Source: a virus
Direction: 5' to 3' (one strand)
Virus record (IMG/VR): IMGVR_UViG_3300028772_000011
Span: 29,275-93,274 of that record
Length of the DNA: 64,000 nt
Position numbers and translations under genes: made by a program. Below the pieces are notes generated by a model. The model saw only the letters and a list, made by a program, of their open reading frames with translations, had not been told where the DNA came from and did not search any database. Shown here one piece after another: positions 2,264 through 52,791 of the stretch (position 1 is its first letter; each line of letters starts with the position of its first letter).

Positions 2264-3064
2264 ATGGAAGAACTTACGATTATAATCCCAATTCATGAAT
2301 TTAACGAAACCATTGGGAACTATTTAGCAAGAGCAATTCAAAGTGTTGAAGCGCAAACAGAAAAACCAAGTAGTATCCTAATTGTCGGTCCAAAAGGGGT
2401 ATTGGGTAATATTAAACAGTTGGACGATAATTTGGTTAGTGTGAATTTAGTTGAGAATAAAGGAGAAACAGACTACTGTTCTCAAATAAATTTAGCTGTT
2501 AAATCCGTCGATACAAAGTATTTTTCAATTCTGGAATTTGATGATTATTATCAAAAAAATTGGATTAAGAATGTTAATATATATACAAAATATAAACCAG
2601 ACTTTTCTATATTTTTACCAATTTCAAAATTTGTAGATGTTAAAGATAATGAAGTTTGTTTGTCGAACGAAATAATTTGGTCACTATCGTTTACAGACAC
2701 ACTTGGTGTTATAGAACCAGATATTTTACAGTCATATGGTGACTTTTCAGTACCAGGTGGTGTTTTACGAGTAGATGATTTCATTGAGGTAGGTGGGCTG
2801 AAACCATCAATCAAGTTATCTTTCTGGTATGAATTTTTATTAAGAGCATCAAACAATGGTGTTAAAATATTTGTAATTCCTAAGACTGGGTATGTACATA
2901 CTATAGAACGTAAAAATTCTTTAATGAGTGAGTATATTGAAATGCCTGAAAAGGAAAAATTATTCTGGATTGAATTAGCAAAAAAAGAATATTACTTTGT
3001 TAATGAACGAGTAGACAAAGCAAAATATATCGAAAAGAAAAAACTAACTGAAATAATTAAATAA
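2264..3064 (+). CDS. glycosyltransferase family 2-like
   Basis: Begins with the GT-A strand LTIIIPIHEF and the usual conserved region ARAIQSVEAQT. An acidic metal-binding segment, LEFDDYY (about 87-93), stands where GT2 enzymes carry DxD. A further conserved region around 165-195 (PGGVLRVDDFIEVGGL) matches the acceptor-side part of the fold. Length 266 aa is typical for a single-domain GT2. Paired with the upstream GT-B gene and followed 1 nt after its stop by the next gene. Confidence 0.7.
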   Translation: MEELTIIIPIHEFNETIGNYLARAIQSVEAQTEKPSSILIVGPKGVLGNIKQLDDNLVSVNLVENKGETDYCSQINLAVKSVDTKYFSILEFDDYYQKNWIKNVNIYTKYKPDFSIFLPISKFVDVKDNEVCLSNEIIWSLSFTDTLGVIEPDILQSYGDFSVPGGVLRVDDFIEVGGLKPSIKLSFWYEFLLRASNNGVKIFVIPKTGYVHTIERKNSLMSEYIEMPEKEKLFWIELAKKEYYFVNERVDKAKYIEKKKLTEIIK

Positions 3065-3065
3065 T

Positions 3066-3491
3066 ATGAGTGAAATAGGTAAAATGTCACCAGAAGCTAT
3101 TCGATCATTTAATAAAAAAGATATTAATAAATGCATTAAAAATTGGGCACAACTCGGATTTAACAATGGTCTATCTGAACCACAATTAACAAATGTGTCT
3201 ATTGCATTCGAAACAATGGACAGTATTTTATTAAATTCATTTACTAATCAATACCAAACCGAAATTGGGTTACTTGTATTTCCAATAGCAAGACGCATTT
3301 TTCAAAAAGTAGACCATGAAATTACGATTGGTGTTATAGTTGATAATTCAATTACTCTAATAGATGAACTCTCAAAATCTTACGTAGAAAGCATAACAGA
3401 AGATTTTATTGCTCAAAGTAAAAAATTCAATATCGACTATGAAGCGGAGTTTTGTGCTGTGTTTTCGGAAAAATATAAATTAAACCTTTAA
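3066..3491 (+). CDS. small protein resembling the capsid protein N-arm
   Basis: 141 aa. Residues about 22-80 resemble the N-terminal arm of the major capsid protein encoded at 12559-14364. Both have W-x-x-LGF-x-x-GL, then an FE element about 15 residues on, then (V/L)VFP(I/M)xRR(I/V)F. The remaining 60 residues have no counterpart that I see. It may be a duplicated capsid arm used in head assembly, or a related fold that binds the same partner. It is last in the 17-3491 series and is followed by a strong terminator. Function unknown; the similarity is seen by eye only. Confidence 0.55.
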   Translation: MSEIGKMSPEAIRSFNKKDINKCIKNWAQLGFNNGLSEPQLTNVSIAFETMDSILLNSFTNQYQTEIGLLVFPIARRIFQKVDHEITIGVIVDNSITLIDELSKSYVESITEDFIAQSKKFNIDYEAEFCAVFSEKYKLNL

Positions 3492-3496
3492 ATTAT

Positions 3497-3540
3497 AAAT
3501 GTCAAGTATTCGACACTGTTTACTTGACATTTTATTTCTT
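3497..3540 (+). terminator. rho-independent terminator
   Basis: A perfect 12-bp stem (AAATGTCAAGTA at 3497-3508 with TACTTGACATTT at 3521-3532) and a 12-nt loop, followed by a T-rich tract. It closes the 17-3491 gene series. Confidence 0.85.
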
Positions 3541-3656
3541 ATCAAACTAATAAAGCATCGGCATAAGATGTTCAAAGAACATAGCCAAATAAAGCGTAAT
3601 AACCTTACGGAAATAGATGTTGCAAAAAAAATAATATTTTTTACAACAAGTATAAA

Positions 3657-4391
3657 ATGGCTAAACGAGGAAGACCCCCGAAACCGAAAGAAGAACGCAC
3701 TGGATTCTACTTCTATACCGATGAAGAAAATGCTGTAGTAGCATATATAAAATCAAAGTCCAGAAAAGAAAAGAATGATATATTTAAAACAATATTAGAA
3801 GTTCCATTTACTAAAATGATTGAATCTATTATTAGGAGATACTTCAAAGATAATATAACTCAAGAAGATTTTCAAGTATATTTTAATGATACTATGGGTC
3901 ATGTAATTGAAAAGATGGTATTATATGATAAAAATAGATGTAAAAAAGCATATTCATATATTGGAACAATTGTTAGAAATTACGTATTAAGTAGATTAAT
4001 TGACAATAGAAAGGCATTATTAAGAGATGCTCAATTTGATGATTTATCAGATGAATTAAATGAGGATATTAATTATTCTTATAATATTAGTGATCACCAT
4101 AATTCAGATATGACTGAAATTATAGATTTAACAACTTCAAAGATAAATGAATTATTGATGGATGGTAAACAAAAATTAATTTATAATGAGATGTTAGTTG
4201 GCAAGGCGTTAGTCGAATTAATGTCAAACTGGGATGAGGTATTTACAGACTTAGGTTCAAATAAATTTAATAAAAGTTCCATTTTATTTTATTTAAAGGA
4301 AACGACTAATTTATCAACTAAAGAAGTTAGGAGTTCAATGAGAAAGTTTAAGACGATATATAATAAAACTAAAGAAATTGTTTATGCTTAA
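3657..4391 (+). CDS. putative sigma-like late transcription factor
   Basis: 244 aa. It starts with an AT-hook-like element (RGRPPK, residues 4-9), and the part around 85-125 looks like sigma region 2 of phage late sigma factors (DKNRCKKAYSYIGTIVRNYVL, compare 'FDP..AF.YF..I.RN' in gp55-like proteins). The C-terminal third is charged and helical. No region 4 helix-turn-helix is obvious, as in T4 gp55. It sits directly upstream of the tail genes and could be the factor reading the TATTTATA-type late promoters. The assignment is an inference from one short motif; another DNA-binding role is possible. Confidence 0.45.
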   Translation: MAKRGRPPKPKEERTGFYFYTDEENAVVAYIKSKSRKEKNDIFKTILEVPFTKMIESIIRRYFKDNITQEDFQVYFNDTMGHVIEKMVLYDKNRCKKAYSYIGTIVRNYVLSRLIDNRKALLRDAQFDDLSDELNEDINYSYNISDHHNSDMTEIIDLTTSKINELLMDGKQKLIYNEMLVGKALVELMSNWDEVFTDLGSNKFNKSSILFYLKETTNLSTKEVRSSMRKFKTIYNKTKEIVYA

Positions 4392-8222: not shown

Positions 8223-8256
8223 AAAAGTCAATCTAAACCATTGACTTTTTATTTTT
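8223..8256 (+). terminator. rho-independent terminator
   Basis: 9-bp stem (AAAAGTCAA, 8223-8231, with TTGACTTTT, 8241-8249) and T-rich tail, directly after the hub gene. Confidence 0.8.
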
Positions 8257-8260
8257 TAAA

Positions 8261-8276
8261 CTATTTATAGTAAAAT
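8261..8276 (+). promoter_or_regulatory. late-type promoter motif
   Basis: CTATTTATAGTAAAAT, one of the closest matches to the shared (G)TATTTATAnTAAAA motif, 9 nt upstream of the ATG at 8285 and right behind a terminator. Confidence 0.6.
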
Positions 8277-8284
8277 AAATCCAA

Positions 8285-9649
8285 ATGAATATAAAAACGT
8301 ATTTAGATAAAACGAATACAATTGTCTATAACTCACTTGTAAACACTGGTCAAAACCCAGTATGTGAATTATATTATGGGGATGGATTCACTCGTGTATT
8401 ACTACATTTTGATACCAGTAAAATTAGCGCATTAATAGACGATAAAACATTTGCTGATACAACCAAATTAAAACACATATTAAAATTAAAAAATTGTTGG
8501 GGTTTACAAACAATTGACAGTAGAAGCGTATTTAATTCTGGTAAAGACACAGTTAAAGAAAGAACATCATCTTTTGATTTATATTTAATTAGAATACCAG
8601 AGTTATGGGATGCAGGTGTTGGTAATGAGTTTACCAAAGATGGATTTATTACAAAACAACCAAGTCTTTCGTATAATGCATCTAACTGGTTTAATTCTGG
8701 AACAGAGAAACCGTGGTATAATGGAAATGGTGTATTATCTGAAATATCATCAACTGATATAATAGCAATTCAGCATTTTGATATTGGTAATGAGGACATA
8801 GAAATTGATTTAACAGATGAAATAAATAATATTTTATCTGGAAACACAGATAATAATGGGTTTATGTTAAAATTTGTTGATCAACTCGAACAAACTACAA
8901 TGAACAAAGCACAATACGTTGGGTTTTTTACACAAAATAGTAACACATTTTTCAAACCTTTTATTGAATCGACTTATGATGATGTTATTTCAGATGATAG
9001 AAATGACTTTTATCTGGATAAGGATAATAAATTATATTTCTATTCTATCATAGGGGGTCATTTAACGAACTTAGACCAATTACCGACCTGTTCTATCAGC
9101 GAAGAAGAGAAAGTTGTTTATCAAGCCTCAAAAGGGGTTTATTACATTGAATTAAACTTATCATCACAAGCAGTCCAAGAAAATGAGATGATATATGATA
9201 TTTGGTCAAATATAATATTCAATCATATTACGTTTAATGATGTTGAACTTGACTTTGTAACTAAAACCAGTTCTAATTATTTTGATTTTGGAAATTCAAA
9301 AATAGAAACAAAAAAATATACGACTAATATATTCGGTATTAATAATGATCAAAAAGTTGATAGGGGTCAAAGAATTAAGATAGGGGTACAGGCTAGAGAA
9401 GAATTTACGATCAACAAATCGATAAATTCAAATAATATGGAAATTAGAATATACGTAAAAGAAGTTGATAAACAATTTGATGTAATCTCATGGGATAAAA
9501 TCGAAAAAGGCTCAACTGAAAATTATTATATGTTAGATACAGATAGTTTACTACCAAACAAATATTATATAGATATTAAAATGAATGTGAATAACGAAAT
9601 AAAAATACACAAGGAATTACTTGTTTTTAATATAGTTAATCAAATTTAA
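8285..9649 (+). CDS. putative tail/baseplate beta-sandwich protein, 454 aa
   Basis: The first ~220 residues look like a DNRLRE/CBM-type beta sandwich (TRVLLHFDTSKI, then long strands, IIAIQHFDIGNEDIEIDLT, GFMLKFV). The C-terminal 200 residues are further beta-rich domains. Such proteins are common as baseplate or fibre parts that bind surface glycans. It has its own terminator-promoter boundary, so it is a separate late transcript. The exact role is unknown. Confidence 0.5.
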   Translation: MNIKTYLDKTNTIVYNSLVNTGQNPVCELYYGDGFTRVLLHFDTSKISALIDDKTFADTTKLKHILKLKNCWGLQTIDSRSVFNSGKDTVKERTSSFDLYLIRIPELWDAGVGNEFTKDGFITKQPSLSYNASNWFNSGTEKPWYNGNGVLSEISSTDIIAIQHFDIGNEDIEIDLTDEINNILSGNTDNNGFMLKFVDQLEQTTMNKAQYVGFFTQNSNTFFKPFIESTYDDVISDDRNDFYLDKDNKLYFYSIIGGHLTNLDQLPTCSISEEEKVVYQASKGVYYIELNLSSQAVQENEMIYDIWSNIIFNHITFNDVELDFVTKTSSNYFDFGNSKIETKKYTTNIFGINNDQKVDRGQRIKIGVQAREEFTINKSINSNNMEIRIYVKEVDKQFDVISWDKIEKGSTENYYMLDTDSLLPNKYYIDIKMNVNNEIKIHKELLVFNIVNQI

Positions 9650-16558: not shown

Positions 16559-17563
16559 TTAAAATAAATTTATTGTATAATCTATATTATCTAAATCCTT
16601 TAATACCGAAGCTGCTTTTTCAACTTCGTTAACAAACAGATCAACATTCTTTGATAGCTCAGAAATACTATTTTCAACCTGAATAAAATGTTCATCATTC
16701 TGGTCGTATGCATATTCTGGTAGCCCCCAAATTGAATTAAGTGTTTTTCTTTTAATTAAATCAAAGCCTCTATTAGCCTCATCCGTTTCAACCATTATAT
16801 TATAGAAATTAGGATAAGACAATGTTTGGGTGTTAAAAAAAGCATTATATTTATTCTGTAATTCCAAGAACTTTTTACTATACTGTTGTAAAAACAAAGT
16901 ATTAATTTGAGGGACATCTTCATTGATAACCCTTCTAACGACATTTTCAATCAATGATTTTATATTTATATTTTCCATAATGAGGTCATTTTCTATTGCT
17001 AATTCTTTAATTTCTGTTTTATCGCTAGAATCGATTGAATCAGATGATAATAATGCTGACACAACTTCTTTCGTTACCAAACCACTCCTAAGTATTTCTT
17101 TAAATTTTTCAATATTATTTTCCACTAATATTATATTGTCAGAATCTGACTTAGCTAATGTTGCATTTTTAAATTTCGGATAAAAATATGGTATGTTATT
17201 GGTTTTTTTAAAATCATATATTTGACCGCATTTTATTTGAATAATATTTTCAATTGGAATTGATCTTGCAGCCCCTTGTATTCCATTAACATCGTATTGA
17301 GAATTATCTCTAATGAATAGTAAATCAAGATCACTCATTTTAACATCACGACTATTATTACTCTGACTTCTTTTGAGCATTGTATCAACATTCATTGTAG
17401 CATGAGTAATATTCCGCAATTCTCCTGTTGTTCTCTTCACAAACAATACAGAAAAATGTTGTTTTCCGTTAGCAATTTTATTCCATAATTCAACTGGGAA
17501 TATATGCCTGGAAAATGCTTCCGTTAAAGGTAATATGTCATTATTTTTTGCTGCGAGGATCAT
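16559..17563 (-). CDS. SH3-barrel-like virion-associated protein, 334 aa
   Basis: Residues 36-112 read FSVLFVKRTTGELRNIT ... LDLLFIRD ... ARSIPIENIIQIK. This is the pattern of the small phage 'SH3 beta-barrel fold' proteins (F-V-x-F-x-K-x-x-G-x-x-R ... YRSIxLxxI). Residues 201-216 (IKSLIENVVRRVINED) carry the short amphipathic helix ending in an (I/L)xE site that is shared with other late genes here. The rest is helical. It overlaps the upstream nuclease gene by 4 nt. Probably packaged in or bound to the head; not certain. Confidence 0.5.
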   Translation of the reverse strand: MILAAKNNDILPLTEAFSRHIFPVELWNKIANGKQHFSVLFVKRTTGELRNITHATMNVDTMLKRSQSNNSRDVKMSDLDLLFIRDNSQYDVNGIQGAARSIPIENIIQIKCGQIYDFKKTNNIPYFYPKFKNATLAKSDSDNIILVENNIEKFKEILRSGLVTKEVVSALLSSDSIDSSDKTEIKELAIENDLIMENINIKSLIENVVRRVINEDVPQINTLFLQQYSKKFLELQNKYNAFFNTQTLSYPNFYNIMVETDEANRGFDLIKRKTLNSIWGLPEYAYDQNDEHFIQVENSISELSKNVDLFVNEVEKAASVLKDLDNIDYTINLF

Positions 17564-18366
17564 TTAAGAATTTGTTTTAATAATAACTCTGGTATATTTT
17601 CATTAGTTGTACATATAGTATTCTTTTCATTATATATATTTTCAAACATTGGGGTTATCATCATATATTTTGTAAACTCAATTTTGTTTGTTACATATAT
17701 TAAATCAACCTTATTATCTTTACATAGTTTATTCTTTTTAATATCTCTACCAACATTTTTTATAAATCCAGTTTTTCCACCAAAATGTTCCATATGTGAT
17801 TCAAAATGTTGTTCTCCTTGGCACTCTATAGCTATTTTATAATCGGGTAAATAAAAATCTAAGGATTGTCGTCCAAGCCATCTAAATTTTTTCTGTTCAA
17901 TATATTCAATTTTATTATCCGTTAAAATTTTACCTATAAATACCTCTATTTTACTTTTTATTTTGCTACATTCTGGGCATCCGTGCTTCTCATTTGTATG
18001 CTTATTAGGCATTTGCCAGAATTCTCCGTGTATTGGACATATTATACATACAGGTAATTTGCTATGGGTATATTCAACTTTAGAATAATCATATTTATCT
18101 CCATGAACTAATATTGCATTTTCAATAAATTTATCTCTGGTTAATCTAATTGTGTTACCTCTTCTTTCGTTATAACACATTTGACAATCATTTATTTCGT
18201 TTTTACAAACTAACCAATTTGGTTTTGACTCCCAAGTATAATTGTGTATTGTACATTTAGCTGTTATGTATTTTTTATTTCCATTATATTGAGAAAGTAC
18301 TACCAAATGCGGCTTTATTATTTTAAGTTGTTCAACAAATTGTTCATGTGTAATTTTTGGCGGCAT
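17560..18366 (-). CDS. zinc-repeat nuclease with 2 repeats and a Vsr-like domain
   Basis: 268 aa. The first repeat (8-68) is degenerate but keeps two CxxC-type pairs. The second (72-130) is canonical: FIENAILVHGDKYDYSKVEY ... CIICPIHGEFWQMPNKH ... GCPEC. The C-terminal domain (137-245) has DFYLPDYKIAIECQGEQHF with the acidic and Gln/His residues of Vsr/PD-(D/E)xK nucleases, then GGKTGF and a KNKLCKDN helix. It sits alone between the protease and SH3-like genes, the usual place of a free-standing homing endonuclease. One of four family members in the window. Confidence 0.75.
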   Translation of the reverse strand: MPPKITHEQFVEQLKIIKPHLVVLSQYNGNKKYITAKCTIHNYTWESKPNWLVCKNEINDCQMCYNERRGNTIRLTRDKFIENAILVHGDKYDYSKVEYTHSKLPVCIICPIHGEFWQMPNKHTNEKHGCPECSKIKSKIEVFIGKILTDNKIEYIEQKKFRWLGRQSLDFYLPDYKIAIECQGEQHFESHMEHFGGKTGFIKNVGRDIKKNKLCKDNKVDLIYVTNKIEFTKYMMITPMFENIYNEKNTICTTNENIPELLLKQILK

Positions 18367-27069: not shown

Positions 27070-27912
27070 TCAAAAATTTACAAATTCTTCAACATTTTCA
27101 TTTAAATCTTCCAAAGAATTGATACGGAACTTATAATACCCATAATCTGAGGATATATCGTGTTCTTCATATGTAATGTCTGTTGTATCAAATAAATCCC
27201 AAATAAGAAACCCGTGCCCACTGTTAACCGTTTCACCAAAATTTTGTTGAATTAGCGAACCAGGTTGAACGATTTTAATTCCATTATAATCTTGTTCTTG
27301 ACGTAAATGTACATCTCCACATAATACAGCATCTGAACCATCAAACATTTCAAGACTTTTGCCGTGTTCAAACATAAATCCACTTTCATTTTTAAGTCCA
27401 ATTGTCATACCATGAAATAAGGATAGAAATATTTTATCTGAGTATTCTATTTTTTTTAATTTTATATCAATTGGTGTATGATTATCAAATACAGAAAATA
27501 AAGACCACATAATATTTTCATCTTCATAAAATCCACCTTTATAACCCAATTCCATATCTAAATATATAATATTAGGTAACTCAAGCATTTGAACAATAGG
27601 AGTTAGGCTATCTACGCGATCTTTATTATTTTCTAAAAAATCATGATTACCACTAATGATAATTGTTTTACATATTTTATCACACTCCCTAAGAAACCAA
27701 CTAAGTAGTTGATTCTGTTCATTTGACACGGTAATCTTAGAATGGACTAAATCTCCAACGATACAAATTCGAGTAGATTCTTTTCCGTTTTCATCAACAA
27801 TTTCTTTTGCTTGTTTTAAAAATTCTGTTATTACTTCCTTATATTCTTGGTGACGTTGAAAATTTCTAATATGTATATCAGCCAAATGAATTACCTTAGT
27901 TATTTTTTGCAT
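27070..27912 (-). CDS. recombination endonuclease subunit (gp47/SbcD-like)
   Basis: 280 aa calcineurin-like phosphoesterase: LADIHIRN near the start, GDLVHSK, SGNHD, LFHG and CGDVHLRQ supply the five metal-binding motifs of the Mre11/SbcD family. T4 gp47 acts with the gp46 ATPase (not in the window) to resect DNA ends for recombination-dependent replication. Shorter than T4 gp47 (339 aa). Its 5' end overlaps the 7-repeat nuclease gene by 17 nt. Confidence 0.85.
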   Translation of the reverse strand: MQKITKVIHLADIHIRNFQRHQEYKEVITEFLKQAKEIVDENGKESTRICIVGDLVHSKITVSNEQNQLLSWFLRECDKICKTIIISGNHDFLENNKDRVDSLTPIVQMLELPNIIYLDMELGYKGGFYEDENIMWSLFSVFDNHTPIDIKLKKIEYSDKIFLSLFHGMTIGLKNESGFMFEHGKSLEMFDGSDAVLCGDVHLRQEQDYNGIKIVQPGSLIQQNFGETVNSGHGFLIWDLFDTTDITYEEHDISSDYGYYKFRINSLEDLNENVEEFVNF

Positions 27913-29614
27913 TTTCTTTTAATTTTATTATATCGTTAATTTTATTAATTAATTCTTGTTCATCAATATATACTTTATCTATATAGTCAATTATATATTT
28001 TGGGTTTTCATATGTAAAATATAATAAATTGACATTATTCTTCTTACATAAATTATTTTTTCTAATATCTCTTTCTCTTACTTCTGAAAATCCTTTAGCT
28101 CCACCCCAACAATTATTTTCATCAAAATGTTGCCTTCCATGATATTCAATAGCTATATCATATTCTGTTAAATACATATCAATACTTTGAGCCCTTAACC
28201 ATTTATCTCTAAATTGGTATACTAAATTATAGTTTTGAAAATTATCTCTAATAATAGATAATAATTTTTGTTCAGATATATCATTTTTTGAAGCACACTC
28301 TGGACAATTAGATCCTCTCAAATGACTACTTGGTATTTGCCAGAATTCTCCGTGGATTTGGCATATAATACATATTTTAGTTGATGAGTTAACGTAATTT
28401 ACTTTTGAATAATCATATTTTTCCCAACGCGCATTTTTTAGCTTTTTAACGTATTCAGTAGTTTCCATTTTATTACACTCTGAACACCCACAGCCTTTAA
28501 GGTGAACTTCTGGTGTTTGTGTAAAATCTCCGTGTTTTAAGCAAGTTATTATAACAGTGGTGTGTCTGTCAACATATTCTACTTTTGAATAGTCATATTT
28601 ATTTCCATGAATCAATTTTGCTTTTGTTATAAATTTTTCATTTGTAAATCTTAAAGCATTTCCAACTATTTCACCTGCACATTTAGGGCAACCTCCACCT
28701 CGCAAATGGCTATTTGGTAGTTGCCAAAATTCACCATGAACTGGGCAAATAATATATACTTTTAAATTCCAATTAATATATTCTGTTTTTGAGTATATAT
28801 ATTTTTCACCATGAATTAATCTTGATTGTTCTATAAACTCATCACTTGTCTTACTATTTTTACATTTTATACACCCCAAGCCATCTAAATGTTTCTTAGG
28901 CTTCTGTTTAAAATCACCATGTATAGGACAATTGATTATTACTGGCGTTTTGTTGTCAACATATATTACTTTAGAATAATCATATTTATTTCCATATATT
29001 ATTTTGGATTTTAAAATGAATGATTCTGTTGTTAAAACCCCATTTGCGCATTTAGGGCAGCCATGTCCAAATGAATGATTTGCAGGTAATTGCCAAAATT
29101 CCCCATGTTCAGGACATATTATACAAATTTCAGTAGTTGAATTAATATATGTAACTTTTGAATAGTCATATTTATTATTATGTATTTTAATTGATTTTTC
29201 TATAAATTCATTAAAATTTAAAGCTAAAGAATTTGTTTTAGTACAATTAGGACATCCGAAACCCTTTAAATGGTCTTCTGGTTTTTGCAAAAACTCACCG
29301 TGTTCTGAACATATTATAATTACAGGGGTATTTTTATCTACATATTTAACCTTTGAATAATCATATTTATTTTTATGTATCTCATTAGCTTTATCCGAAA
29401 ACATTTCAGTAGTTGGTACATTGTGGCCGCATTTAGTACAATTATTACCGTTTAAATGATTGTTTGGTAATTGGTAAAATTCACCGTGTATTTTACATAT
29501 AATACAAACATGTTTTTTACTATTAACATAAACTACTTTTGAATAATCATATCTATCTCCATGAATCAGTATAGCTTTTTCGATAAATTCCTCTCTTGTT
29601 AATTTTTTAGGCAT
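27896..29614 (-). CDS. zinc-repeat nuclease with 7 tandem repeats
   Basis: 572 aa. Seven copies of a ~62-residue repeat cover residues 7-450: (E/D)xFIxKAxxIHGxKYDYSKVxY, then IxCxxHGxFxQxPxxHLxGxGCPxC. Each has the HG and two Cys pairs that could bind zinc. A Vsr-like nuclease domain follows (455-560): SIDMYLTEYDIAIEYHGRQHF, GGAKGF, and an RKNNLCKKNNVNLLYF helix-strand. Members elsewhere in the window have 2, 3 and 4 repeats. Probably a free-standing homing-type endonuclease that binds a long DNA site with its repeat array. Overlaps both neighbours (17 nt and 8 nt). Confidence 0.8.
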   Translation of the reverse strand: MPKKLTREEFIEKAILIHGDRYDYSKVVYVNSKKHVCIICKIHGEFYQLPNNHLNGNNCTKCGHNVPTTEMFSDKANEIHKNKYDYSKVKYVDKNTPVIIICSEHGEFLQKPEDHLKGFGCPNCTKTNSLALNFNEFIEKSIKIHNNKYDYSKVTYINSTTEICIICPEHGEFWQLPANHSFGHGCPKCANGVLTTESFILKSKIIYGNKYDYSKVIYVDNKTPVIINCPIHGDFKQKPKKHLDGLGCIKCKNSKTSDEFIEQSRLIHGEKYIYSKTEYINWNLKVYIICPVHGEFWQLPNSHLRGGGCPKCAGEIVGNALRFTNEKFITKAKLIHGNKYDYSKVEYVDRHTTVIITCLKHGDFTQTPEVHLKGCGCSECNKMETTEYVKKLKNARWEKYDYSKVNYVNSSTKICIICQIHGEFWQIPSSHLRGSNCPECASKNDISEQKLLSIIRDNFQNYNLVYQFRDKWLRAQSIDMYLTEYDIAIEYHGRQHFDENNCWGGAKGFSEVRERDIRKNNLCKKNNVNLLYFTYENPKYIIDYIDKVYIDEQELINKINDIIKLKENAKNN

Positions 29615-29756: not shown

Positions 29757-29813
29757 CCTATATAAATATTAAAAAAATTATTATTTTACTATAATTCATA
29801 CTTTTATTTTTAA

Positions 29814-31518: not shown

Positions 31519-32643
31519 TTAATTTTGAGAAATATTTAATTCTTTATTTAATATTTCTTCTATATTATAAAATTCCGTATATGGGATTCTAATTAATTTA
31601 ATACCATTATCAAGACAATATTGTGTTTTAATTTCATCTCTTTTTTTATTAAGTATAAAAGATATTTCTCCTCCCCAATGATTAACTGGTTGAAAATGCT
31701 GTTTACCATCGAATTCTATACATATATTAAGCGATGGTATGTAAAAATCAAAAGGTAATGGTTTTATATTCTTGCATTCATTAAATCTATGTTGGTTGAT
31801 ATTAATAATATTTTTCTTATTTAATATTTTCATAATTAAGCTTTCGCCTTTACTTTCTATACAAATAGGACACCCTTTACCTTGTAAATGATTGGTAGGG
31901 CTACACGAAAATTGACCATGTTTTTTACAAATAATATTAACCTTTTTATGTGCAGTTTCATATTTCACTAACGAATAATCAAATTTATCACCATGAATAA
32001 GTTTTGCGCTTAAAATAAACTCATTAGTTGTTGGTTTAATTTTATTACTACATTTAGCACATCCATCGCCTCGTAAATGATGCTCAACAGTTTGCTTGAT
32101 AATATTACCACAATCCTTACAATAAAAAATAATATAATCGGTTAATTTAATAAAAACAACATCTGAATAATCAAATTTATTTTTATGTTTAATATTTGCC
32201 TTTTTTATAAATTCTTCTTTTGATAGATAATAATTTCCTAAACATTTTTTACAACCATTACCTTTAGATATTAATAATGATCCAGCTTGAACATAAAAAT
32301 TATTTCCACATTTTTTACATATTACGTTAACTTTTCCTTTATCGTTAATATAATTAATATTTGATAGGTCATAACTATCTCCGTGCTTTTTATATAACTC
32401 TAATAAATATTGCTCTTGCGTTTTTGTTCTTTTTAACGTACCCTTTTTTATACTGCATTTTGGGCATCCACTGCCTAATAAATGTGATCCAGCTTCTTGT
32501 TCAAAAAATTCTTTATGAATATTACAAAATATTTTTAATTTAGAGTGTCTTCCACTATATATTGTTTCAGAATAATTATATCTATCTCCGTGAATTAATC
32601 TTGCTTTAATTATAAATTCTTCTGTTGTAAGTTTTTTACTCAT
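31519..32643 (-). CDS. zinc-repeat nuclease with 4 repeats
   Basis: 374 aa. Four tandem zinc-knuckle repeats (7-245), more divergent from one another than those of the 7-repeat protein; two have CKKC/CKDC pairs in place of C-x-x-H. They are followed by a nuclease domain with DFYIPSLNICIEFDGKQHF (about 293-311), GGEISF and a final KLIRIPY strand. Free-standing and directly upstream of an early promoter. Likely a homing-type nuclease with its own DNA target. Confidence 0.75.
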   Translation of the reverse strand: MSKKLTTEEFIIKARLIHGDRYNYSETIYSGRHSKLKIFCNIHKEFFEQEAGSHLLGSGCPKCSIKKGTLKRTKTQEQYLLELYKKHGDSYDLSNINYINDKGKVNVICKKCGNNFYVQAGSLLISKGNGCKKCLGNYYLSKEEFIKKANIKHKNKFDYSDVVFIKLTDYIIFYCKDCGNIIKQTVEHHLRGDGCAKCSNKIKPTTNEFILSAKLIHGDKFDYSLVKYETAHKKVNIICKKHGQFSCSPTNHLQGKGCPICIESKGESLIMKILNKKNIININQHRFNECKNIKPLPFDFYIPSLNICIEFDGKQHFQPVNHWGGEISFILNKKRDEIKTQYCLDNGIKLIRIPYTEFYNIEEILNKELNISQN

Positions 32644-46437: not shown

Positions 46438-48036
46438 ATGAGTGAATTTATTCCAAGTGTATATCAACAAGAGGTTTTTGATTTCATAAAATACGGTCAC
46501 GGAAACGCTGTTGTAGAGGCAGTTGCTGGGTCAGGTAAATCAAAAACTATCATCGAATGTTTAAAATACATTAAAGGAGATAAGAGGGTTTTATTTTTAG
46601 CGTTCAATAATGCTATTGTTGAAAGTTTAAAAGGTAAGATTAATAGAGAAAAAACAGATGTAAAAACATTACATTCTTTAGGTTATTCAATTCTAAAATA
46701 TAATTTTAAAGACATTGATATAAAGATTGACGAACTTAAATATAAAAAGAAACTTAATGTTTGGTTTAATCATAATGAGATTGATGGCGCAAGTGATGAC
46801 CTATTTGAAGGTATAAGCGATGGTGTAAATGTAAAAAATGTAAAGAAATATAAATCCAACATATTAAAACTAACTGACCTTGGTAGATACTATCTAACAA
46901 AAAATAAAAAACAATTGGAAGTAATATCAATTAAACACAATATTGTATTAGTTGATAATGAAATTGACATTGCACTTGCATTACTTGCGTGGGCTAAGAA
47001 TAGTTTAGAAGAAACTAATTCAATTGATTTCGGTGATATGCTCTATCTTCCAAATATCCTACCAATCAGAACATTTAAATATGATTTTATTATCATTGAT
47101 GAAGCACAAGATTTATCATATTCACAATTACAATTATTTTTGAAATGCTTCAAACAAGGTGGCCGTTTCATAGCCGTAGGAGACAAAAATCAGTCCATCT
47201 ATGGTTTCTCTGGATCTGATACTGAGTCATTTAATAAAATTAAATCACTTCCAAGTACAATATTACTTCCGTTATCAATTTGCTACAGGTGTCCAACAAA
47301 GGTAATTGAGTTAGCAAAGAAATTTGTTCCAGAAATTGAAGCTCGTGAAAATGCGATAGAGGGTTATATCAATTATAAGGCCTCTATTGACGATATCATC
47401 GATGGGGACATGATTATATGTCGAAACACCTTACCACTCGTTAAATTGTACTTAAAATTGATTTCAGAAGATAAAAAAGCATTTATTAAAGGAAAAGATA
47501 TTGGGGTTAATTTAATTGATTTAATTAAAGATATTAATGTAGATGATTTAAACACAGATTTAAATGAAATTGGTGTTTTTAGTGAACTATATTCATCATT
47601 ACTTGGCTTTATTGAACAAACTAAAAGTCTACTTGAAATAAGCGAAAGTGAAGTATTCGAAACACAGGAATTCAATAATTTACTTGATAGTATCGAATGC
47701 TTGGAAATTGTTGCTAACGGATTAGAAACAAAACTTGAATTAATCAATAAGCTTACGTTAATTTTTAAAGACAACAACGGGGAAGGAATTTGTTTATCAA
47801 CAATACATAAAGCTAAAGGACTGGAAGCGGACAACGTGTATATATTGAATAAGAATTTAATGCCAAGTAAGTTTGTAAAACAAGATTGGGAAAAAGAACA
47901 AGAGAGAAATTTAGAATATGTTGCATACACTCGTCCAAAGAAAATGCTTGGATTCATATATTCAAAGGATGAAATAAACTTTAAAACAACACCAGAAAAA
48001 ATAGCTGAAATAAAATATTTAATAGAAAAACTTTAA
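46438..48036 (+). CDS. superfamily 1 DNA helicase (UvrD/Dda-like)
   Basis: 532 aa. Motif I AGSGKSKT (30-37), motif Ia, motif II DFIIIDEAQDLS (about 217-228), motif III GDKNQSIYGFSGSD, motif V STIHKAKGLEADNVY, motif VI EYVAYTRPKKML. An insert (about 300-440) is helical. Likely 3'-5' or 5'-3' translocase in replication or recombination; phage Dda functions in origin melting and strand exchange. The preceding short genes may be co-transcribed. Confidence 0.85.
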   Translation: MSEFIPSVYQQEVFDFIKYGHGNAVVEAVAGSGKSKTIIECLKYIKGDKRVLFLAFNNAIVESLKGKINREKTDVKTLHSLGYSILKYNFKDIDIKIDELKYKKKLNVWFNHNEIDGASDDLFEGISDGVNVKNVKKYKSNILKLTDLGRYYLTKNKKQLEVISIKHNIVLVDNEIDIALALLAWAKNSLEETNSIDFGDMLYLPNILPIRTFKYDFIIIDEAQDLSYSQLQLFLKCFKQGGRFIAVGDKNQSIYGFSGSDTESFNKIKSLPSTILLPLSICYRCPTKVIELAKKFVPEIEARENAIEGYINYKASIDDIIDGDMIICRNTLPLVKLYLKLISEDKKAFIKGKDIGVNLIDLIKDINVDDLNTDLNEIGVFSELYSSLLGFIEQTKSLLEISESEVFETQEFNNLLDSIECLEIVANGLETKLELINKLTLIFKDNNGEGICLSTIHKAKGLEADNVYILNKNLMPSKFVKQDWEKEQERNLEYVAYTRPKKMLGFIYSKDEINFKTTPEKIAEIKYLIEKL

Positions 48037-48076
48037 TTAAATAACATTTTTCATGTTACAATAACAGCTTTTTCAA

Positions 48077-48115
48077 TTTTTCATGTATTTATATATAAAA
48101 TAAATACATGAAAAA
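48077..48115 (+). promoter_or_regulatory. 15-bp hairpin over start codon with internal late promoter
   Basis: TTTTTCATGTATTTA (48077-48091) and TAAATACATGAAAAA (48101-48115) pair perfectly with a 9-nt loop. The ATG of the nuclease gene (48108-48110) is inside the right arm. The late-type motif GTATTTATATATAAAATAA (48085-48103) lies within the hairpin. A long early transcript would hide the start codon; a transcript starting within the hairpin would not. T4 uses this design for I-TevI and gene e. Confidence 0.65.
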
Positions 48116-49034
48116 GTTAACTAATGAAGAATTTATTAATAAATGCCAAGCAATTTACGATAATTATGATTATTCTAAAACGTTATATGATGGGTGCGGG
48201 AAAAAAGTAATAATTATTTGTGAAGAGCACGGAGAATTCGAACAAACACCAACTCACCTATTGAGTGGTCACGGTTGTCAAAAATGTGGTATAGCGAGAA
48301 GAGGATTAATTAGGAGTTCTAATACTACTGAATTTATTGACAAAGCTATTAAAGTTCATGATAATAAATACACATATGAAAAATCAATTTATAAAACCTC
48401 AAATTCAAAAATTATTATAACATGTCAAGATCACGGATATTTCACTCAAACCCCATCTAGCCATTTGAAAGGAAGATGTTGCCCTAAATGTTCAAAGCAA
48501 TCATATAAAGATACTAAAGAGAGTTTTATTGAAAAAGCAAAATTAGTTCACGGAGATAGATACGATTATAGTAATGTGGTGTATATAAACTGTTTTACTA
48601 AAATAGATATTATTTGTAAAAAACACGGGGTTTTTAATCAAACCCCAATTGATCATTTACAAAGATGTGGTTGCAAGCAATGTAAAGAAAGTAAATTAGA
48701 AACAGAAGTCCGAAATATATTAAAAACTAACGAAATAAGTTTTAAATACGATGTAAGAAATGTAGATTGGCTAAAGCCATTGACTCTTGATTTTTATATT
48801 GAAAATAAAAAAATAGGCATTGAATGTCAAGGAGAACAACATTTTAGATCAATAAAATATTTTGGTGGTGATGTTGATTTTGAGAAAAGAGTTATAAATG
48901 ATAATTTAAAAAGTAAATTATGTTTTGAAAATGGAATAAAATTATTATATTATAGTAATCACGAATATAACGATACAATAATAACAGATATTAACTACTT
49001 GATAGATGAAATTAATAATTCACCAACATTATAA
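48108..49034 (+). CDS. zinc-repeat nuclease with 3 repeats
   Basis: 308 aa. Three tandem zinc-knuckle repeats (4-188), each with the FIxKA...YDYS...CxxHGxFxQTP...CxxC layout, then a nuclease domain with LTLDFYIENKKIGIECQGEQHF (about 225-246), FGGDVDF and KLLYYSNH. The domain order and catalytic residues match the 2-, 4- and 7-repeat members on the minus strand. Its start codon is held in a hairpin that includes a late promoter. Free-standing after the helicase gene, with no obvious link to it. Confidence 0.8.
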   Translation: MKKLTNEEFINKCQAIYDNYDYSKTLYDGCGKKVIIICEEHGEFEQTPTHLLSGHGCQKCGIARRGLIRSSNTTEFIDKAIKVHDNKYTYEKSIYKTSNSKIIITCQDHGYFTQTPSSHLKGRCCPKCSKQSYKDTKESFIEKAKLVHGDRYDYSNVVYINCFTKIDIICKKHGVFNQTPIDHLQRCGCKQCKESKLETEVRNILKTNEISFKYDVRNVDWLKPLTLDFYIENKKIGIECQGEQHFRSIKYFGGDVDFEKRVINDNLKSKLCFENGIKLLYYSNHEYNDTIITDINYLIDEINNSPTL

Positions 49035-51906: not shown

Positions 51907-52791
51907 ATGCTCAAACGATTTAATTCAAATGCTTCAAAGTCTTACTACACACCAAATGTGGGTGTTTTAAATAGTTTTTTATTAGAAATTTCAAAGTTTA
52001 AAATAATAGATGAAAAGGAAATAAGAGTATTAATTAAATTATCAAAAAAAGGGGATAAGATTGCTACTGATAAAATTGTTAAGTCATATCAACGATTCAT
52101 TGTTACAGTAGCTAAGAGATATAGTGCTGGAAATTATGAATTATTATGTGATTTAATAAATGAAGCGAATATTGGTCTGTTAAAAGCCATCGAAACATTT
52201 GATATGAAATTCGACAATAAATTACTCACCCACGCAATTTCACATATTCAAAAAATGATATTTGAATATTTAACATTCACAGCAGACCAAATTAAGATTT
52301 CAAATAAAAATAAAACGATAAATGTGAAGCATATATCCAACAGATTTTTACTTGAAAATGGAAGACTACCAGCAACAGCCGAAATTATAGATATATTAGA
52401 GGAAACAAAAGGTATAAGCATATTAAATGAATCTGATATTTATAATATTGATATGTTTTCAATGAGTAATATAGTTGAATTTGATGGATCAAGTGATTTA
52501 GGAAGCGAAATAGAATTTAATAATACAGATAAGATGTCATCTGTTAATGAATATGAAGCAAAATGTGATGGTGAGCACTTTAAAACGATAATTGATAGTG
52601 TTATTGGAACTTTAACACCAAAAGAACAAAAAGTAATGAAATTATTATATGGTATAGATGAATATAAACAATTTGAAATACAGGAAGTCGCCGAAGTTAT
52701 TGGAGTAACAAGCGAAGCAGTTAGATTAATTAATAAGAGAGCGTTAAGTAAATTAAAACAAGAAATTAATATCATTAAAGAAAGAGTATAA
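51907..52791 (+). CDS. sigma-70-like RNA polymerase sigma factor
   Basis: 294 aa. Region 2 is recognisable (KSYQRFIVTVAKRYSAGNYELLCDLINEANIGLLKAIETFD, about 57-97) and region 4 is good (LTPKEQKVMKLLYGIDEYKQFEIQEVAEVIGVTSEAVRLINKRALSKLK, about 237-285). In region 2.3/2.4 the Trp residues used for promoter melting in host sigma factors are absent. A group of acidic residues (200-225) replaces part of region 3. It likely redirects host RNA polymerase to phage promoters. Divergent specificity region suggests it reads a non-host promoter. Confidence 0.85.
   Translation: MLKRFNSNASKSYYTPNVGVLNSFLLEISKFKIIDEKEIRVLIKLSKKGDKIATDKIVKSYQRFIVTVAKRYSAGNYELLCDLINEANIGLLKAIETFDMKFDNKLLTHAISHIQKMIFEYLTFTADQIKISNKNKTINVKHISNRFLLENGRLPATAEIIDILEETKGISILNESDIYNIDMFSMSNIVEFDGSSDLGSEIEFNNTDKMSSVNEYEAKCDGEHFKTIIDSVIGTLTPKEQKVMKLLYGIDEYKQFEIQEVAEVIGVTSEAVRLINKRALSKLKQEINIIKERV

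Follow-up and report, generated by a model that had tools for sequence, protein, structure and literature searches.

A hairpin over the start codon of a phage homing-endonuclease-like gene probably ties its translation to an overlapping late promoter

Does the inverted repeat that encloses the start codon of a phage nuclease gene, and whose left arm is shared with a late-type promoter motif, tie translation of the nuclease to transcription from that promoter? The locus lies in a window of 64,000 nucleotides, the whole stretch of DNA analysed here (bases 29275-93274 of a 93-kb viral record), and the features that matter for the question are the following.

46438-48036, plus strand: UvrD/Dda-like DNA helicase gene (Pfam UvrD-helicase, 3e-29; phrog_1967), the assumed source of read-through
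48077-48092, plus strand: left arm of the hairpin, TTTTTCATGTATTTAT, one half of a 16-bp perfect inverted repeat, which would be present only in read-through transcripts
48086-48093, plus strand: octamer TATTTATA, the core of the predicted late promoter, overlapping the left arm
48086-48103, plus strand: full promoter-like motif TATTTATATATAAAATAA, which matches the motif of the phage group
48093-48099, plus strand: hairpin loop of 7 nt, ATATAAA
48100-48115, plus strand: right arm of the hairpin, ATAAATACATGAAAAA, holding the ATG (48108) with its A-rich leader
48108-49034, plus strand: free-standing homing-endonuclease-like gene of 308 aa, with treble-clef-like repeats and a C-terminal VSR-like (EDxHD-type) nuclease
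17560-18366, 27896-29614 and 31519-32643, all minus strand: paralogous VSR-type homing-endonuclease-like genes, without start-codon hairpins

We consider it likely that the hairpin works as an RNA switch that makes translation of the nuclease depend on the gene's own late promoter. Computation shows that the hairpin exists, that the promoter motif is present and associated with late genes, that the start codon is open in short transcripts and that the layout is enriched at nucleases; that upstream transcription reads through, where exactly the late transcript begins and how translation responds are the parts of the switch that we infer.

The sequence-only reading of this locus had described a perfect 15-bp hairpin spanning the ATG at 48108. 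The repeat is indeed perfect, its length is 16 bp rather than 15, and the ATG falls within the right arm, which places the AUG inside a stable 16-bp stem. No other perfect hairpin in the window is as long, the runner-up having 13 bp, and at 90% complementarity the inverted repeat lengthens to 21 nt (48072-48092 with 48100-48120). The RNA fold of the 56-nt hairpin stretch has an energy of -14.9 kcal/mol (z = -6.1), a value that none of 200 shuffles equalled. The region has no match in Rfam, and an exact search for the hairpin across viral contigs returned no copy, which argues that the arms at 48077-48115 are not a mobile repeat.

The position of the ATG at 48108 as the true start of the nuclease is supported by the consensus of its homologues, which begins MxKKLTTEEFI. 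The 308-aa product matches the phage endonuclease families phrog_559 (E=2.6e-66) and phrog_9084 ('homing endonuclease'), and its AlphaFold model, built with 34 homologues, has a pLDDT of 92.9. The best Foldseek match of the model is the VSR endonuclease 1cw0, with a probability of 1.00 but E=0.015, followed by 1vsr with a probability of 0.99 (E = 0.015-0.04 across the two). The modelled VSR-like nuclease fold fits the EDxHD/VSR-type homing endonucleases (PMC3943268). D228, E239 and H245, candidate active-site residues, are invariant across the 34 homologues. A PDB sequence search with the nuclease gave no match, I-Bth0305I of the EDxHD family (PMC3943268) included, and the DNA-binding part of the nuclease, compared with that enzyme, consists of treble-clef-like repeats. 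A relative with an empty site at the locus 48108-49034 was not found. Of the four related nucleases that this phage genome encodes, a single one carries a start-codon hairpin. One of the three paralogues, 27896-29614 (minus strand), lies directly downstream of a small ribbon-helix-helix-like ORF starting near 29757 (minus strand), and in the related contig L005 a ribbon-helix-helix-like gene (2841-2999) stands directly before a nuclease gene (2989-3939); this order behind a TATTTATA promoter in both genomes possibly marks a repressor-nuclease cassette.

The promoter motif is not peculiar to this locus. In the 93-kb record the TATTTATA octamer, followed by an A-rich stretch, occurs on the sense strand just 5' of many genes (e.g., at window positions 8285, 14411, 18402, 24506, 39958, 41656, 61512 and 62673); the motif is strand-specific and is found 8-40 nt upstream of at least 12 or so genes. 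The consensus of the phage group is aTATTTATAAtAAAATAAA (also given as aTATTTATAAtAAAATA), with a median spacing of 24 nt between the first base of the octamer and the ATG; at the nuclease gene this distance is 22 nt. In a survey of 120 viral contigs retrieved by the pattern TATTTATANNAAAATN{2,25}ATG, the motif stands before 14 tail sheaths, 7-10 tail tubes, 7 baseplate genes (T4-type) and 3 portals among 150 genes of relatives. Judged from these sequence associations, TATTTATA is a genuine late-type promoter motif of the group, in agreement with the earlier claim that a late-type motif lies within the hairpin. Read on the opposite strand, the octamer is the T4 late promoter octamer TATAAATA; searched for as such, TATAAATA was only mildly in excess (35 against 24.5 expected), and it was rejected as the sense motif in favour of TATTTATA. 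A literature search for TATTTATA as a phage promoter returned nothing relevant. The window also encodes a sigma-70-family factor with regions 2 and 4 (51907-52791, plus strand), a candidate reader of TATTTATA promoters. In five related contigs (L160, L137, L159, L250 and L146), G+C-rich stems followed by a T run lie directly upstream of the octamers of tail genes and are probable terminators isolating late transcription units.

The capsid protein of the phage matches those of T4-like phages, including Rhodothermus RM378 and Flavobacterium immuto phages, and the best match of the helicase is to Bacteroides phages DAC19 and relatives. A search with the helicase gene found no close relative. Shine-Dalgarno-like leaders precede only 2 of the 89 genes of the genome, whose leaders are 57% A. 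Together, the capsid and helicase matches and these leaders make a Bacteroidetes host likely. Flavobacterium lacks Shine-Dalgarno sequences, and mRNA structure and A-rich leaders tune initiation there (PMC6847099). The nuclease leader likewise has no Shine-Dalgarno site, and what the hairpin hides is the AUG together with an A-rich leader.

The helicase gene lies on the same strand and ends 41 nt before the hairpin, and a terminator scan found none on the plus strand between the two. The helicase region is presumably transcribed before the late genes. Transcripts entering from it would contain both arms, would fold and would hide the start codon and its A-rich leader. Those initiated at the TATTTATA promoter would start past the left arm, would not fold and would be translated. 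The nuclease would then be silent on read-through messages and made only once the late sigma system of the phage fires. The free energy needed to open the AUG with 6 nt on either side, computed for each transcript start, agrees with the claim that long transcripts fold and short ones are open. It amounts to 11-14 kcal/mol (about 12) for transcripts starting between 47900 and 48080, drops to 5.5 kcal/mol at 48083 and 1.4 at 48086, and is at most 0.4 from 48089 onward; removal of the left arm thus takes the cost from about 12 to less than 0.5 kcal/mol. The predicted promoter is placed, as far as sequence can tell, such that transcripts starting at 48089 or later leave the AUG open. By analogy with the geometry of T4-type late promoters, transcription would be expected to begin at about 48093-48105, and the spacing usual after a -10 octamer would put the start at about 48098-48103, which would yield an open start codon. 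The mechanism put forward in the sequence-only reading is, overall, well supported as an inference.

If the layout serves nucleases in particular, it should be over-represented at their start codons. The extra opening cost, i.e., that of the long minus that of the short transcript, was computed for each TATTTATA-ATG gene, and with 13.7 kcal/mol the nuclease of the window ranks second among 357 promoter-linked genes. In a set assembled blind to hairpins (n=170), eight nucleases have a median of 6.4 kcal/mol, against 0.96 kcal/mol for 162 other genes (Mann-Whitney p=4.5e-8), and the cost exceeds 4.5 in seven of the eight nucleases versus 8% of the others. The 150 lower-ranked genes were labelled from family counts (the 25 commonest families) and homology to a nuclease panel, and a few nucleases may have been missed. 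Swapping left arms between genes weakens the hairpins of nucleases. The native fold beats 95% of swaps in 8 of 40 nucleases, none of which was selected by hairpin pattern, versus 10 of 289 others (Fisher p=4e-4; Mann-Whitney p=6.5e-6). With folding energy in place of opening cost, the VSR-type set alone differs only marginally from the other genes (p=0.045), a weakness attributed to upstream terminators, which inflate the energies of other genes and for which reason the opening cost of the start codon was used instead. Strong start hairpins are also present at a few non-nuclease genes (e.g., L109:8240-8827).

A scan of the relatives for the hairpin frame placed GIY-YIG, NUMOD3-HNH, HNH_3 and NUMOD4-HNH genes at the top by energy (the last three in L031, L042 and L082, respectively), and virion genes with the same promoter have weaker folds than these top nuclease genes. 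The hairpin of the GIY-YIG gene in L115 comprises 21 Watson-Crick and 5 G-U pairs with no mismatch. Among VSR-type relatives chosen by protein only, several start codons lie in large hairpins that have the promoter within or next to one of the arms (L269, with z of -6.9, L254, L281, L275, L290 and L286); 7 of the 25 promoter-bearing ones exceed 5 kcal/mol and 18 have about 5 or less. A scan of GIY-YIG genes covered mostly phages without the TATTTATA promoter, and folds near or over the start were found in L330 (= L082), L388 and L394 but not in L344. In L005 the layout covers the start of the small ribbon-helix-helix-like gene directly before the nuclease gene. The hairpin layout is thus a recurrent option, frequent but not conserved, and not a family trait. 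The sequence-only reading had proposed checking whether homologues keep the arms by paired changes; related phages show the layout on other nucleases, with arms that differ and yet still pair. Octamer and start codon aside, the long arms of different nucleases share no sequence, and for this reason they probably arose separately. The sequence-only reading had spoken of an independent use on a different nuclease family, which holds and understates the case: examples of the layout occur at HNH, NUMOD, GIY-YIG, endo VII-like and VSR-like nucleases. We lean towards the view that, in T4-like and probably Bacteroidetes-infecting phages, the late promoter has repeatedly become a hairpin arm on unrelated mobile nucleases (VSR/EDxHD, HNH, NUMOD, GIY-YIG and endo VII-like), a convergent solution independent of Shine-Dalgarno sites that would silence selfish nucleases on read-through from host genes, early or late.

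A different function for the repeat at 48077-48115 would be that of a DNA operator palindrome, bound by the nuclease or by a phage repressor that shuts the overlapping promoter, as I-TevI does. The promoter lies within the inverted repeat, I-TevI is known to repress the late promoter of its own gene (PMC2988022), and the ribbon-helix-helix-like genes before related nucleases (29757, minus strand; L005) could encode repressors. We nevertheless regard this alternative as improbable. The start codon falls within the long repeats, and the arms of the relatives lack the sequence in common, apart from octamer and start codon, that the operator of one family would have. Moreover, when G-U was counted as a mismatch in arm detection, it occupied 11 of the 16 non-Watson-Crick positions in the five longest nuclease hairpins, and 22 of 73 over all 28 hairpins, with about 17% estimated from base composition; this excess in the long arms fits RNA rather than a DNA palindrome. 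The RNA hairpin may also double as a DNA operator. Less probable still, and rejected here, is a chance coincidence of AT-rich sequence, a T-rich promoter and a ATGAAAAA start. The genome has 28% G+C and many of its genes begin with MKK, but a perfect arm of at least 16 bp occurred anywhere in only 2 of 160 third-order Markov windows, a chance of about 1% per window that does not even require a start codon in the arm, and the left-arm swaps speak against coincidence, as does the nuclease bias. That the hairpin, 41 nt past the stop codon of the helicase gene, terminates the helicase operon is the least credible reading and was rejected, since neither strand has a T run after the stem, the scan finds no plus-strand terminator, and the likely terminators of the group are G+C-rich stems with a T run upstream of the octamer (L160, L137 and L250).

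The preferred reading, an RNA switch, follows a logic that is already known. In T4, I-TevI, I-TevII, I-TevIII and segB, as well as mobE of Aeh1, have a late promoter adjoining a hairpin over the ribosome binding site, and the T4 genes e, soc and 49 are under the same control (PMC2988022, PMC3014915), in agreement with the earlier statement that T4 delays I-TevI and gene e in this way. Like the gene of the window, the three I-Tev genes encode homing endonucleases whose translation start is hidden on early or middle read-through transcripts, and have a late promoter in or next to the 5' arm that gives short open transcripts. Unlike it, they are intron-borne and their hairpins hide a Shine-Dalgarno site, whereas the window gene is free-standing in a genome with such sites in 2 of 89 genes; the I-TevI promoter is TATAAATA, whereas the window gene has TATTTATA and a predicted VSR-type fold. 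The nuclease hairpin is thus a variant of I-TevI-type control without a sequestered Shine-Dalgarno site. Aeh1 mobE and T4 segB resemble the window gene in being free-standing nuclease genes with a hairpin over the initiation region and a late promoter, but they belong to the HNH and GIY-YIG families, come from gamma-proteobacterial T4-like phages and rely on Shine-Dalgarno sequestration.

The settings of the genes can be compared as well. Hairpin nucleases of the relatives follow genes for ribonucleotide reductase (L141), thymidylate synthase (L115), anaerobic ribonucleotide reductase (L228), NAD synthetase (L269), a glycosyltransferase (L249), tail sheath (L055) and major capsid protein (L116). 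The three settings named first correspond to those of T4 I-TevI (td), I-TevII (nrdD) and mobE (PMC2988022), the last of which sits in a ribonucleotide reductase gene. The position of nucleases behind tail sheath and major capsid genes suggests that the device would block any read-through translation, not only early translation. What is new are the nuclease families, the type of promoter, the octamer as part of the arm and a phage group nearly devoid of Shine-Dalgarno sites. The literature searched contained no report of the layout in such phages, which is not proof of absence. If the reading is correct, a control known from a few genes of T-even phages would be a general solution for mobile nucleases in phage operons, a sequence test (promoter octamer, start codon and complementary arm) would detect such elements in uncultured phages, and a natural system would be at hand for start-codon control by structure only in bacteria without Shine-Dalgarno pairing.

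The T4 e, soc and 49 leaders share with the window gene the logic of folded long and open short transcripts. They belong to ordinary late genes, whereas the layout described here is found mainly at nucleases, a gene in L109 being one of the exceptions. That gene (8240-8827, minus strand) encodes a membrane-like, non-nuclease protein, and its strong start hairpin spans the TATTTATA promoter with an extra opening cost of 12 kcal/mol; it could be a lysis-type gene, controlled like T4 e.
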